Source: Lactiplantibacillus nangangensis (GTDB lineage: Bacteria; Bacillota; Bacilli; Lactobacillales; Lactobacillaceae). Taken from it: a stretch of 64,000 nucleotides of DNA. Of this stretch, positions 5,624-41,394 are shown piece by piece (within the stretch, counting starts at the first letter, position 1; every line of letters begins with the position of its first letter). The notes below the pieces were generated by a model. The model worked only from the letters and a program-made list of their open reading frames with translations. It was not told the origin of the DNA and made no database searches. Made by a program: the position numbers and the translations under genes. The stretch lies in the NCBI RefSeq assembly GCF_005405065.1, contig NZ_BJDI01000016.1:1-64000 (forward strand), given 5' to 3'.

Positions 5624-5658
5624 AGGCTGGTAATTTTAACCAGTTAATAGTTGATAAT

Positions 5659-5854
5659 TGCCGCTTCCGGTTGTTGTTGATAACATGCGGCCGTGGGACC
5701 GGGGCAAGCCTGAGGAACGTCTTGCCCCTCGCCCGAAAGCTTTGCAAAACCCGCAAATCTCTCGGCCGGTCCGTGGTGTAAGACCGGAAATTCGCCGGTC
5801 AAACGCCACCCACACGGCCGATGCTATCAACAACAACCTCCAGCTAGTTAACTG
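5659..5854 (-). repeat. family-1 intergenic structured repeat, copy A
   Basis: About 195 bp, nearly identical, on the opposite strand, to copies at 7669-7864 and 40867-41061. The ends carry an inverted repeat (TTGTTGTTGATA / TATCAACAACAA). Internally there is a hairpin with ACCGG/CCGGT arms and a GGACCGG/CCCGGTCC pair. No protein-coding potential is conserved. With its flanks it fills most of the 440-nt gap between the histidine phosphatase and esterase genes. Confidence 0.8.
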
Positions 5855-5996
5855 CTTTGAGTGATTAGTTAATTGGACGGAGCAATGAGCCGTACGAGGC
5901 AATTCTGGGTATAACCAACGCTGGCGTTACTGGATTTCACGGCAGTTTTGACACTTTTGGTCTTTAGTTACCAGTTATAAAGTAAAAAATAACACA

Positions 5997-7088: not shown

Positions 7089-7239
7089 AATTAGGACCTA
7101 CTTTCTTAAAGTGTTAACTGACGCGTACAGTTAGTTCTTAAGTCTTATTATAAGTAGGGGGGATATGAATTAATAAAATACTGAATAGTAACTTTAGTGA
7201 ATAATCATATTGGTGGCTGCTTATTTGAGGGTGCCTCGG

Positions 7240-7390
7240 TTGCCGCCTGCCGGTCGGGACCTAAAACGCTGGAACGCCATGGGCCATTTTAAAGCCAAAG
7301 GGCGGTCTTTAAAACTGGCCTTTTCCTAAGTCCGGGAAGCCCACCCGCACTAAGGAAAATTTCATGGCTGAGCGTTTTAGGCCCCGACCT
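7240..7390 (+). ncRNA. family-2 structured element, copy D (candidate RNA)
   Basis: Outer helix 7252-7270 with 7371-7389 (19 positions, one A.C mismatch), inner helix 7276-7281 with 7363-7368, hairpin 7287-7314 with loop CCAAAGGGCGGT, and hairpin 7321-7359 with an internal A.A mismatch. The second copy at 35465-35610 has the same fold with paired base changes. I do not recognise the family. Strand is given as the direction in which the shared sequence reads; true transcription is unknown. Confidence 0.6.
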
Positions 7391-7495
7391 CTCGGCTAAA
7401 TAGGATGCTGTTCTAGATAGCTAACGTGTATCTGGCAATGTTTTTGATACTGAAATAAATTGCTGTTGTTGACTACAAGTGCATCCTCAAGAAAA

Positions 7496-7546
7496 TAAAA
7501 ATCTGTAAAGTGTCATAGATTTAACTATGATGCTTTACAGATTTTT
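7496..7546. terminator. orphan terminator-like hairpin between copies D and B
   Basis: A long stem (AAATCTGTAAAG ... CTTTACAGATTT, with an inner CATAG/CTATG) followed by a T run. No protein gene ends here: the esterase begins at 7088 leftward and murE ends at 7926. It could end a transcript of element D, or read-through from murE. The rest of the 7089-7925 gap holds only elements D and B. Confidence 0.6.
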
Positions 7547-7668
7547 TACTAAGAGTTGAAAATATTAAGCCTGTTGAGAATTTAATAATACTGGTGTTGG
7601 TTATGTCCAAAACTGCCTTGCACCGCTCATCACGCTGTCAGTCTGAACAACAAACTAATCACTAAAAG

Positions 7669-7864
7669 CAGTTATTTAGCTGTAGGCTGTTGTTGAGTGC
7701 ATCGGCCGTGTGGGTGGCGTTTGACCGGTGATTGTCCGGTCTTACACCACGGACCGGTCGGGAGATTTGCGGTTTGGGCAAAGCTTCCGGGCGAGGGTCA
7801 AGACGGTTGTCAGGCTTGGCCCGGTCCCACGGCCACATGTACTCAATAACAACCGGAAGTGGCA
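7669..7864 (+). repeat. family-1 intergenic structured repeat, copy B
   Basis: Same element as copy A but in the opposite orientation, so A and B form a long inverted pair 1.8 kb apart around the esterase gene. The ends pair imperfectly (TTGTTGAG / CTCAATAA) and the internal CCGG hairpin is present. It lies just downstream of murE. Confidence 0.8.
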
Positions 7865-7925
7865 CTATGCGACTAGCTTGCATAACGCGGCTCAGCAATT
7901 TTTAACCAAAAATTGAATTTAGTTC

Positions 7926-12695: not shown

Positions 12696-13044
12696 GTGTG
12701 TTCATCTCTCAATCTGTAAGTTTAAGTTTTTTAAGGCACTGAATGGTACTCAATGTTTTGTTGTTAATTTACCTGATTTTACCGCTTAAGTAAAGCAATC
12801 ATAGGCATTGTAACGGATTCTTACCGAATTGCCATCATATTCTTGACAGGTTTTGGCCTGATTTCGATATTTAAAAAGTAATATTCGGTTTATACATATA
12901 ACTAATGAGTACACTTGAACTATTATACTTGCTTTAAGCGCTAAGATAAAGATGATTAAGCGTTTCGTAGCGGTTACAAAGTAAAATAAATTTAATATAA
13001 TTGACTTTTTGCTGTCACTGAAACGTGCTAGTAACCGTCCTAAT

Positions 13045-13138
13045 ATTACAAAATATTACAAAAAGAGCCATTTATTACAGAAAATGGGTGAATTAGTAAT
13101 CTGCTTGCTATTGGTTTGTTACATCCAGTCCGTATACT
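13045..13138 (+). promoter_or_regulatory. upstream region of the LysM gene: TTACA repeats and promoter
   Basis: Two ATTACA motifs start at 13045 and 13055, exactly 10 nt apart, with a third at 13074; on the other strand they read TGTAAT, resembling WalR boxes. A possible promoter follows: TTGGTT, 16 nt, TATACT (13133-13138). An alternative promoter has TATAAT at 12996-13001. The remaining gap 12696-13044 shows no ORF or RNA that I can name. Confidence 0.35.
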
Positions 13139-13221
13139 TAGCTCCTGTTGTTAAGTCCGGTAACCACGTGGTACTGAACTTTAAGAAACTACCCAAAAAA
13201 CACAGGAGTGAAACTATTTAT

Positions 13222-13881
13222 ATGAAGATCAAGAGTTTACTATTATCAACTGCAGCCGCGGCTAGTTTGTTTGTCCTCGGCACAACTGCTGCCAACGCCG
13301 ACACCGTTACGGTCAAGGCTGGCGACACCGTTAGTGCATTGGCAGACACTTATAACACCACGATTTCAGCAATTGAAAAAGCTAACTCATTAGCTGACGT
13401 TAACTTAATTATCGTTGGCCAACAGTTGGAAGTAAATGGCACGACGACTCAAGCTGTCGCAACACCAGCTTCACAAGCACCGGCCCAATCACAGGCGCCT
13501 GCTTCACAAGCCCCAGCTCAGTCTCAAGCCCCTGTACAATCACAGACCCCAGTTCAATCTCAAGCACCTGCTCAATCACAAGCTGCTTCAGCAGCCCCAG
13601 CAGCAACGACGGCTAGTGCGCCAGTTCAATCACAAGCGCCAGCAGCCACGACCAATGATTCTGACAGTTCAGCTAAAGCTTGGATCGCCAACAAGGAATC
13701 AGGCGGTTCATACTCAGCTACCAATGGTCGTTATATTGGTAAGTATCAATTAGACTCATCATATTTAAATGGTGACTATTCAGCGGCTAACCAAGAACGA
13801 GTTGCCAACAACTATGTTTCATCACGTTATGGTTCATGGGCAGCAGCACAATCATTCTGGCAAGCAAACGGCTGGTACTAA
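13222..13881 (+). CDS. secreted LysM protein with transglycosylase-like C-terminal domain
   Basis: The start at MKIKSLLL follows AGGAG, and a clear signal peptide ends near ANADT; the frame is open further upstream, but the extra residues read like leader. 219 residues: LysM (VTVKAGDTVSALADTY, about 28-75), a low-complexity Ala/Pro/Gln/Ser linker (about 78-150, repeated QAPAQSQ), and a C-terminal module with NKESGGSY and GKYQLDSSYL, typical of the transglycosylase-like proteins of lactobacilli. The Glu in KESGG is the likely catalytic residue. It should bind and cut or remodel peptidoglycan at the surface. Confidence 0.88.
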   Translation: MKIKSLLLSTAAAASLFVLGTTAANADTVTVKAGDTVSALADTYNTTISAIEKANSLADVNLIIVGQQLEVNGTTTQAVATPASQAPAQSQAPASQAPAQSQAPVQSQTPVQSQAPAQSQAASAAPAATTASAPVQSQAPAATTNDSDSSAKAWIANKESGGSYSATNGRYIGKYQLDSSYLNGDYSAANQERVANNYVSSRYGSWAAAQSFWQANGWY

Positions 13882-21147: not shown

Positions 21148-21360
21148 TGGCGTAGCTAAGCGAAGGACGCAGGTTGACCGAACACGTTTCGGCTATCTAG
21201 GTCCGAGTGGTTGCTTAACCGGGATAAGCGGAGCCCGCAGTCGAATTTTACACGTTTCGACTATTTAGGTAGAAAGAGTGGTTAACTGGCGTAGCTAAGC
21301 GGCCGACGCCCGTTGGCTGAGTATGTTTTGACTATCAAAGTAGCCCTCTTTCGCCGACCG
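21148..21360 (+). repeat. three tandem imperfect units of about 66-74 bp
   Basis: Units at 21148-21220, 21221-21286 and 21287-21360. Each has a small hairpin around TAAGCG (arms GCGT/ACGC, CGGG/CCCG and GGCGT/ACGCC), then a segment around ACACGTTTCG (ATGTTTTG in unit 3) and a CTAT motif followed by TTAGGT-like sequence. The arms change in pairs between units, suggesting selection on folding. Not recognised. Confidence 0.6.
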
Positions 21361-35114: not shown

Positions 35115-35370
35115 TATATCGAAAGAAGAGGACGCGGTTAACAAGAGTAGCTGGTCGGAATCGGGTAACCGATGGTGATCATCAGTGAAAGGGGCAACTG
35201 CCGAAATAGGTTTGACTGTTACCGTCAAAGCTGTTGGGCCTTGGTTGAATAAATCAAGGACTGTCGCAACTGGGACTCAGTTGCGGGGCGCTATCGACGA
35301 TGAAATCAGCATTTAACATGATATCTGATTAAGTCTTTTTGCGCAGTTTGCAGAAGGACTTTTTATTTTG
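35115..35370 (+). promoter_or_regulatory. lysine riboswitch (L-box) with terminator
   Basis: The conserved L-box pieces appear in order: AGAGGACGCG, AAGAGTA, AAGGGG, GCCGAA, then a helix around CAACTGGGACTCAGTTG and the closing GGGGCGCTATC. A terminator follows (AAGTCTTTTTGC / GCAGAAGGACTT and T run, 35331-35369). With lysine bound, the terminator should form and shut off the permease downstream. Confidence 0.88.
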
Positions 35371-35464: not shown

Positions 35465-35610
35465 CTTGCCACTCTGGTTGGGCCAAAATTGGCTGGAACG
35501 TGGTGGCCACGGTTGTGAGCCAAAGGGCGGTCTCACAAGCCGGGCTTTATCTAAGACGGAAAATCACCGTCTAAGATAAACTTCACCACTGAGCCAGTTT
35601 TGGCCCGCCC
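35465..35610 (+). ncRNA. family-2 structured element, copy E (candidate RNA)
   Basis: Outer helix about 35479-35494 with 35592-35607, inner helix 35500-35505 with 35584-35589, hairpin 35513-35538 with loop CCAAAGGGCGGT, and hairpin 35546-35580. Same fold as copy D with compensatory changes. It lies in the leader between the lysine riboswitch terminator and the permease gene. The rest of 35371-35713 has no ORF. Confidence 0.6.
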
Positions 35611-35713
35611 GACGTTGAATCCTGTTTGGAAAGGAAAGAACGAATCTAGCCGAGAGGTTGTCAGTCACTATCAGGATTAATGAAAGAGTCAAACATTTTT
35701 TGGAGGTTTCTGC

Positions 35714-37162
35714 ATGGCAGAAGAACAACAGCATGAAGTGAAGCGCTCGTTACAGACGCGCCATCTCTCCATGATTGCATTAGGCGGTAGTATTGGGACT
35801 GGTTTGTTTGTGGCATCCGGTTCCGCGATTTCAACGGCTGGTCCAGGTGGGGCCTTGTTAGCTTATGTTGGGATTGGGATTATGGTGTATTTCTTAATGA
35901 CCAGTTTAGGTGAAATGGCGACTTATTTGCCGGTTTCAGGGTCATTTTCAACTTATTCCACCCGCTTTGTGGATCCCGCACTAGGGTTTGCAATGGGCTG
36001 GAATTATTGGTTTAACTGGGCGATTACCTTGGCCGTCGATATTAGTACGGCAGCAATCGTCATGCAATTTTGGTTGCCACACGTTCCAGGATGGATTTTT
36101 AGCTTGATTGCTTTAATCTTGATTTTCACGATCAATGCCTTATCAGTCCGGTCATTTGGTGAAACGGAATATTGGTTATCCCTCATCAAAGTGGTTACTG
36201 TGTTAATCTTCTTGGTAGTCGGGGTACTCACAATTTTCGGAATTATGGGCAGTAGTGCCACTGATCTCAGCAACTTCACCTATAAAAAAGCCCCATTTGT
36301 TGGTGGGATTCCGACGATTTTGAGTGTGTTCGTGGTCGCTGGTTTCTCATTTCAGGGGACTGAATTAATTGGGATTACAGCTGGCGAATCCGCCACGCCT
36401 GAAAAAAGTATTCCCGCTGCCATTAAACAAGTTTTCTGGCGAATTCTACTATTTTATATCTTGGCGATTTTTGTCATTGCGGCAATCATTCCTTACACGT
36501 CGAAAGATTTGTTAGGGTCGTCTGCGAGTGACATCGCCATTAGTCCGTTTACGTTAGTGTTCAAAAAAGCCGGTTTAGCCGCGGCAGCAAGTATTATGAA
36601 TGCGGTCATCCTAACGTCTGTATTATCGGCAGCTAACTCTGGGATGTATGCGTCAACGCGAATGCTGTACTCACTTTCAAAGCAAGGTTATGCCCCGAAG
36701 ACATTTGGCCGCGTCAATGGTCGGGGAATTCCAATCATGGCGTTGTTTGGGACGACAGTCATCGGTTTGTTGACTTTCTTATCCAGCATGTTTGGCGATC
36801 GTATTTACATTTTCTTAGTTTCAGCGAGTGGGTTGACCGGTTTTATCGCTTGGCTAGGCATAGCCATTTCACATTTGCGTTTCCGGCAAGCTTTTGTTAA
36901 ACAGGGGCACGATGTCAGTGAGTTGCGCTATCATGCAAAGTTGTTCCCATTTGGGCCATTATTTGCGTTCTTTCTCTGTTTGGTGGTTATCATTGGGCAA
37001 GACCTGCACTCGTTTGCGACCTTAGATTGGCAAGCCATTGGTGTCACTTATATGAGTATTCCATTATTTGTCGTGTTATTTTTCTATTACAAAATTCGTT
37101 ATCATACAAAATTGATTCCGTTGGATAAAGTTGATCTGACCAAGCATCATTTGGATGACTAG
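35714..37162 (+). CDS. lysP: lysine-type amino acid permease (APC family)
   Basis: 482 residues, 12 membrane segments, starting with the family signature (LSMIALGGSIGTGLF). It has the FQGTELIGITAGE helix 6 region typical of the amino acid permease subgroup that includes LysP. The lysine riboswitch upstream supports lysine as substrate. TTGGAGG precedes the ATG. The symbol is assigned from the switch plus family. Confidence 0.88.
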   Translation: MAEEQQHEVKRSLQTRHLSMIALGGSIGTGLFVASGSAISTAGPGGALLAYVGIGIMVYFLMTSLGEMATYLPVSGSFSTYSTRFVDPALGFAMGWNYWFNWAITLAVDISTAAIVMQFWLPHVPGWIFSLIALILIFTINALSVRSFGETEYWLSLIKVVTVLIFLVVGVLTIFGIMGSSATDLSNFTYKKAPFVGGIPTILSVFVVAGFSFQGTELIGITAGESATPEKSIPAAIKQVFWRILLFYILAIFVIAAIIPYTSKDLLGSSASDIAISPFTLVFKKAGLAAAASIMNAVILTSVLSAANSGMYASTRMLYSLSKQGYAPKTFGRVNGRGIPIMALFGTTVIGLLTFLSSMFGDRIYIFLVSASGLTGFIAWLGIAISHLRFRQAFVKQGHDVSELRYHAKLFPFGPLFAFFLCLVVIIGQDLHSFATLDWQAIGVTYMSIPLFVVLFFYYKIRYHTKLIPLDKVDLTKHHLDD

Positions 37163-40848: not shown

Positions 40849-40866
40849 GTGCCTAGTCACTCAGAA

Positions 40867-41061
40867 CAGTTGATTAGCTGTAGGTTGTTGTTGATAGCAT
40901 CGGTCGTGTGGGTGGCGTAAGACCGGTGATTTTCCGGTCTTACGCCACGGACCGGCCGGGAGATTTGCGGTTTGGGCAACCCTTCCAGACAGGGGACCAA
41001 GACGTTTCTGGCTTGGCCCGGTCCCGCGACCACATGTTATCAGCGACAACCGGAAGCGGCA
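40867..41061 (+). repeat. family-1 intergenic structured repeat, copy C
   Basis: Third copy, same orientation as B. It has the best internal hairpin (GTGGCGTAAGACCGG and exact complement, 15 bp). It lies in the 1.1-kb gene-free stretch before the tRNA cluster; apart from this copy, the hairpin and the candidate RNA, I see only promoters there. Confidence 0.8.
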
Positions 41062-41394
41062 AATTTTAACAGTCAGTCTTTAGTGACTGGATTTCGAACA
41101 GCCTAACTACTGAATATATTCAACAAGTTGAAGCTGAAATTCGGTCATTAAAGTGGTCTGATTATGCTGTAAGTGGCTGATTCCTAAAAAATATCATCAT
41201 TTTCAATGAATTATTTCAAAAAAATGGACGGCTTAAAACGTTGATATAATAGTAATTCCATTGATAAATAACCAAACAAGTCAAAAAAGTTGCATTTAGG
41301 GGTTTGCAGATTTTGTGACCAGTGCTATAATATTTCTTGTCGGAAAAATATGCGTTTCAAAAGCATATTTATCCAAAAAGATTTAAAAAAGATG

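Follow-up and report, generated by a model that had tools for sequence, protein, structure and literature searches.

Among the repeats of bacterial chromosomes, the REP/BIME and REPIN-RAYT sequences are intergenic, present in many copies, palindromic and grouped as inverted pairs, whilst the attC sites of integrons are covarying folds of which a single strand is active. A REP has been described as one hairpin, 20-40 bp long (PMC3733652). The element described here, from a window of 64,000 nucleotides of Lactiplantibacillus nangangensis (the whole stretch of DNA that was analysed), is likewise intergenic, multi-copy and palindromic, and its dispersed unit is an inverted pair; however, each arm is a multi-branched fold of 157-200 nt rather than a single short hairpin, and this genome holds no Y1 transposase. 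As with attC sites, it is a covarying fold with one probable folding strand, but no cassette array or gene is seen between neighbouring elements. With the cis-regulatory RNAs of Rfam, such as riboswitches and the T-box, it shares a branched fold, invariant loops, compensatory stems and the tolerance of G.U on one strand; in contrast to these, the family reaches no Rfam threshold score, is not tied to one gene or side, and is dispersed in about a hundred copies as convergent pairs. One subfamily of approximately 405 bp resembles the MITEs of IS982 transposons in having terminal inverted repeats (TIRs), target duplications and an intact IS in the genome, yet it carries two covarying folds as cargo, the folds are kept in place, and most units of the family lack the TIR. 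The family combines REPIN-like pairing, MITE spread and riboswitch-like covariation, and there is a real chance that it is more than a set of dispersed palindromic repeats.

The branched fold of the element is kept by compensatory changes. A preliminary description of the window had reported two copies, at 7.2 and 35 kb, with such changes in every helix; both were recovered by covariance models at these sites (Table 1), and the changes do extend to every helix. In 56 comparable consensus pairs the two copies differ on both sides in 17 and on one side in none; 32 pairs are unchanged and 7 are unpaired in one copy, so that pairing is not kept at every position of the two. CCAAAGGGCGGT, CTGGAACG and both CTAAG segments show no difference between the copies, as had been claimed, and on the strand then read each copy is more stable than 200 dinucleotide shuffles (z -5.2 and -7.4). 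The suggestion that the stems drift whilst the fold is retained holds for a far larger sample. When 38 copies from the same genome were aligned, 94.9% of 2084 cells pair, as against 30-47% with the partners slid by 1-3 columns; double changes occur in 36 of the 56 pairs (399 cells) and the covariation score is 0.486, compared to 0.136 for shuffled and 0.03-0.09 for slid alignments. For 43 copies from six genera the corresponding values are 92.3% of 2413 cells (31-49% slid), with 45 of 57 pairs covarying and a score of 0.555 (0.169 shuffled, 0.07-0.13 slid). When 12,297 column pairs were ranked without reference to the structure, base pairs of the fold took 26 of the first 30 ranks.

Each arm is a three-way branched fold. 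On the folding strand it is comprised of an outer and an inner stem, separated by an unpaired CA/GTTCC internal loop, followed by two hairpins; in one of these both sides carry CTTAG, and in the other GAGACC/GGCTC surrounds the loop. Across the 43 copies 24 columns are invariant, many of them unpaired, and the GGAA/CA loop and bulges are retained. Two types are distinguished by length, S (157-173 nt) and L (about 190-200 nt). As the fold is kept across many lactobacilli though its letters drift, the cell seems in some way to rely on the shape of the element.

Whereas the preliminary description counted just two copies, there are about a hundred in the genome. A blast search placed the element in at least 37 positions (40 of 50 candidates scored), and a covariance model built from the 38 own-genome copies (R1) yielded, at E <= 0.001, at least 102 matches, including one that is the same place on the other strand; as 150 of 816 candidates were scored, the copy number may exceed 102. 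The resulting 101 places, at about 165 nt each in 2.9 Mb, amount to roughly 1% of the genome. Covarying homologues were also found in other Lactobacillaceae, where R1 matches 28 of 121 genomes (11 of 40 genera) and a second model (R2), built from the 43 copies of six genera, matches 124 of 388 genomes (15 of 40 genera) at E <= 1e-6; the E-values of both models are rough, their calibration having been short. R2 matches are present in 19 of the 21 genomes of the genus, and the two genomes without a match indicate that the element is dispensable. In an order-wide draw R1 matched 8 of 246 genomes, of which one, with a weak score (35 bits), lies outside the Lactobacillaceae. This genome, G159, from another family of the same order, has three weak matches of 34-35 bits, possibly distant members. 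The distribution is patchy, genomes having many copies or none. The named records among the matches listed belong to Lactiplantibacillus, Levilactobacillus and one Lactobacillus sp., and the flanks place the genome near L. daoliensis and L. pingfangensis. A single 181-base query found no match in plasmid and phage records.

Nor do the copies stand alone, as the preliminary description had them; they belong to convergent pairs. The stretches of the genome that were examined contain 75 units, arranged as (+ -) in 38 cases, (+ + -) in 3, (+ - -) in 1 and (- -) in 2, with 31 single copies, and neighbouring copies are oriented (+ -) 42 times, (+ +) and (- -) three times each and (- +) never. The gaps between arms are 21-63 or, mostly, 200-430 bases, with one of 116 and one of 545. 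In 40 short stretches from other genera all 16 pairs are (+ -). The arms of a unit can be of different type; the L type, called 'Family 1' in the preliminary description, has at least 40 relatives in the genome by blast. The 7.2-kb copy is the left arm of a unit of this kind, since R2 finds the L type at 7673-7866, within its right arm. Left and right arms share an identity of 0.61-0.63 within units and 0.64-0.66 between units. A giant hairpin formed from both arms was rejected on these figures, and because arms of the same unit are no more alike than those of different units, the structure under selection is the fold of the individual arm. A dispersed subfamily of G121 (L234, L240, L243, L246, L249) retains its first arm together with some 75 bases of the spacer, and the second arm, of L type, is reduced in several copies.

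Table 1. Elements of the window and their parts, with the IS982-family copies of the same genome
Feature	Position	Strand	Score or basis
S-type element, left arm of convergent pair	7239..7402	- (probable folding strand; read as + in the preliminary description)	R1 171.7 bits, R2 159.4 bits
Helices of 7239-7402, folding strand (outer and inner stem)	7396-7394/7247-7245; 7389-7363/7281-7252	-	
Hairpins of 7239-7402, folding strand	7359-7345/7335-7321; 7320-7304/7296-7282	-	
Spacer of the 7.2-kb pair	7403..7654	.	
L-type element ('Family 1'), right partner of 7239-7402	7655..7870	+	R2 7673-7866, 40.5 bits, E 2e-9
S-type element, second copy	35465..35621	-	R1 142.8 bits, R2 140.2 bits
Helices of 35465-35621, folding strand	35610-35584/35505-35476; 35580-35566/35560-35546; 35545-35529/35521-35506	-	
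Remnant of right partner of 35465-35621	about 35644..35664	+	By-eye leader comparison, 21 genomes of the genus
L-type element, no partner found	5657..5868 (blast extent)	-	R2 5657-5850, 49.9 bits
L-type element, no partner found	40853..41063 (blast extent)	+	R2 40871-41063, 52.1 bits
956-bp IS982-family copies, same genome	L250 1021-1976, 2266-3221; L251 1006-1961		

True RNA stems tolerate G.U and not A.C, as seen in the lysine riboswitch of the 21 genomes of the genus, used here as a control, where the two stand at 88:15. On the strand that had originally been read, A.C mismatches outnumber G.U pairs (95 to 48 in 80 own-genome copies and 221 to 56 in 125 copies from other genomes, constitutive G.T columns omitted), and that choice of strand was not borne out. 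Folding each strand separately gave the same picture: at up to 85% identity (n=94) G.U:A.C is 163:53 on the complement and 46:77 on the strand first read, and at up to 75% identity (n=33) 65:29 and 38:43. Among 45 copies from other genera the complement has 80:36 and the strand first read 46:74. By genus, the values for the complement and the strand first read respectively are 50:16 and 17:42 in g16, 6:2 and 2:6 in g22, and 2:1 and 1:2 in g12 and g5 together; in g4 the asymmetry is weak (17:10 and 16:13) and the consensus energy is better on the strand first read. The L type has 203:56 on the complement and 81:66, with a poor consensus, on the strand first read. The complement is also more stable, at a mean of -83.9 as against -77.0 kcal/mol. 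The folding strand is thus probably the complement of the one first read, pointing out of the pair. However, G.T is tolerated in DNA as well, so the asymmetry cannot separate RNA from single-strand DNA. A wider caution is that, without a comparison of G.U with A.C, the wrong strand of a palindromic repeat may be taken for the folding one.

The folds also seem constrained where they sit, judging from one unit common to three species and three comparisons between two species. In the unit shared by G121, G122 and G132 the arms are 88.5-90.4% and 89.7-90.9% identical, compared to 41-62% for the 40-base spacer; both elements being kept whilst the spacer is scrambled points to constraint in place. 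The coding flanks 300-1200 bases off are 82-87% identical and the near flanks 61-98% depending on the side, the right flank from +21 to +150 (95-98%) being more conserved than the elements. Read on the folding strand, this unit shows 4 compensatory changes and 8 one-sided changes which keep the pair by G.U, with 5 changes that abolish a pair in one or more of the species. Of the two-species comparisons, one gave 84% and 87% for the arms and 53%, with large gaps, for the spacer; the second gave 71% (left) and 88% for the arms; and the third, at the 35-kb site, gave 95% for the element and 80% and 85% for the neighbouring 40 bases. Spacers are not conserved between units.

Movement is documented for one subfamily. 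A pair of approximately 405 bp is dispersed over unrelated sites in several species (25 aligned), and its ends are the inverted repeat CGCTTGGTGCTAGTTG. The same TIR occurs 956 bases apart three times in the L. nangangensis genome, enclosing an ORF of 289 aa that is intact in two cases and broken in one, and the protein is an IS982-family transposase (NF033520, 219 bits, cut-off 130). In 18 composites both TIRs were located, and in nine of these the sequences immediately beyond the TIRs have 6-11 nt in common; among crossed pairs 0.65% share at least 6 nt. This subfamily is an IS982-family MITE, and one that has moved as a whole, leaving behind target duplications of 8-11 nt. The TIR has 22 matches in the same genome and about 190-200 in two other species. 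As most units lack TIRs and the long-gap pairs show no excess of duplications (6 of 41 share at least 7 nt, against 9% when shuffled, although age could have erased them), IS982 accounts for one subfamily only. The 956-bp copies themselves have no element match in L250 or L251. The preliminary description had offered either a functional RNA or an element mobile via folded single-stranded DNA; the retention of the fold on which both were based stands, whilst the movement documented here took the ordinary double-strand transposon route.

Units are almost always situated between ORFs, 3 of 75 overlapping an ORF of at least 80 aa, and their neighbouring genes are codirectional in 43 cases, convergent in 17, divergent in 14 and undetermined in 1 (both counts with a simple ORF caller). 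A role solely as a terminator at gene ends was rejected, as gene orientation round the units is unremarkable by inspection of these ORF calls. No conserved promoter- or terminator-like motif was detected in 165 non-redundant flanks; nothing there shows transcription of the elements, and an autonomous sRNA gene was rejected for want of a conserved promoter or T-run. Coding was likewise rejected, 62 of 80 copies having no frame open from end to end. With regard to novelty, the preliminary description was upheld against Rfam 15, in which no family lies on the window elements at gathering thresholds and, at relaxed thresholds, nothing lies on the 7.2-kb copy; in 14 other loci one low match overlaps an element at relaxed thresholds (TB11Cs5H3, 23.7 bits as against 50). 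The family was not found described in the open-licence literature, and may be in print elsewhere; nor was a description found in two stem-loop surveys (PMC2267715, PMC1590033), whose tables include Lactobacillus johnsonii and no plantarum. A T-box-like match (43.5 bits, gathering score 93) was noted beside, and outside, the element in L281 at 566-727.

We propose, giving it an even chance, that these are twin cis-acting RNA elements which have spread as transposon passengers and are useful or harmless in either orientation. The element would act in cis at the RNA level: a transcript entering a unit from either side would include first the antisense arm and then the arm in folding sense, and with the arms inverted a transcript of either direction would receive the same folded RNA, which might, for instance, halt, cut or shield it. 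An intergenic insertion would then do no harm, or be of use, at any site and in either orientation, and this would explain both the passenger spread on transposons and the upkeep in place. Several findings count against this proposal: the flanks have no conserved promoter or terminator; gene orientation shows no clear bias, which a termination role alone does not predict; 31 of the 75 units are single; two genomes of the genus do without the element; the constraint in place is drawn from few loci, with one left arm at 71% and one right flank more conserved than the elements; and the strand asymmetry is weak in g4, whilst in the L type the strand first read has 81:66. If the upkeep in place is true, the family would represent a working strand-polarised nucleic-acid structure without an Rfam family, found in 15 of the 40 genera sampled among the lactobacilli of food and gut; it would offer a testable case of a mobile element with its own RNA structure retained by the host, and studies of RNA structure would gain a large natural alignment. 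An extended form of the proposal, tentative and rather less probable, is a bidirectional RNA device on a mobile twin unit, by which every transcript, on entering from either side, would acquire one copy of the same large RNA fold. About one in three of the Lactobacillaceae genomes sampled would have acquired such units, frequently in high copy number, and selection would maintain them there as a means of controlling or protecting transcripts throughout the genome, with a putative dedicated RNA-binding partner.

The strongest competitor, possible though on the doubtful side, is that the arms serve a REPIN-like mobile unit as its ends, folded as single-strand DNA, and that a transposase specific for this structure recognises the outward strand of both, in which case the covariation would reflect selection for mobility. 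Such an origin is consistent with the inverted twin arrangement, with a strand polarity that fits ends related by inversion, with the patchy distribution of many copies or none, and with the lack of surplus duplications at long-gap units, as would follow if the enzyme made none. However, the enzyme family searched, the Y1 transposase (PF01797), has no match in this genome and no association with the element over 121 genomes (9 of 28 with the element and 23 of 93 without, p 0.47), and a RAYT/Y1 transposase was rejected as the mover. The documented movement instead uses IS982-type ends on double-strand DNA, and a fold retained in an old shared insertion which has lost its spacer would be unexpected of dead copies. 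A cis-acting RNA is held to be the more likely of the two, and single-strand DNA the less likely.

It is improbable that the units are no more than MITEs, derived from IS982 and lacking autonomy, with long inverted ends that fold by chance and pairing as a by-product of the inverted repeats. The TIRs, target duplications and intact IS982 of the 405-bp subfamily are what this would predict, but the covariation is found inside each arm and not between the arms, the 22 TIR matches compare with 75 units, the long-gap units lack the duplications, and the IS982 copies of the genome carry no element. Finally, quasi-palindrome correction is a known process, and template switching between hairpin arms could keep complementarity without selection, giving double changes far more commonly than single-sided ones, as is the case here; yet bulges and mismatches should then vanish, whereas the unpaired GGAA/CA loop and bulges persist, and the strand asymmetry is not predicted, which leaves this explanation highly improbable.

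Returning to the proposed cis-acting elements as they lie in the window, the 35-kb copy lies in the leader that precedes an ORF resembling an amino-acid permease (35714-37162), 3' of a lysine riboswitch (35118-35301; RF00168, 108.8 bits) which has a terminator-like stem and T run and is kept in the 21 genomes of the genus. Apart from the remnant in Table 1, the right arm of this unit has been lost; the orthologous place in G122 has the whole pair (the partner in L197 being called by the model), and in the remaining 19 of the 21 genomes no pair separates the riboswitch from the permease. Two of these 19 (L202, L203) nevertheless have a unit immediately upstream of the lysine riboswitch. At the 7.2-kb locus, three relatives which share the neighbouring gene have a different sequence in its place, and 4 of the 20 other loci of the genus have a match somewhere in the stretch compared. 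The spacer of the 7.2-kb unit contains a terminator-like hairpin and T run at about 7497-7548. Elsewhere in the window, short repeats (CCxGCTTCACAAGC...), in-frame looking, are present at 13465-13646 inside the ORF 13009-13881, and a repeat of approximately 70 bp with a ACACGTTTCGGCTATCTAGGT-like core occurs three times in tandem at 21148-21341; a sequence similar to the latter adjoins an element unit in L029.
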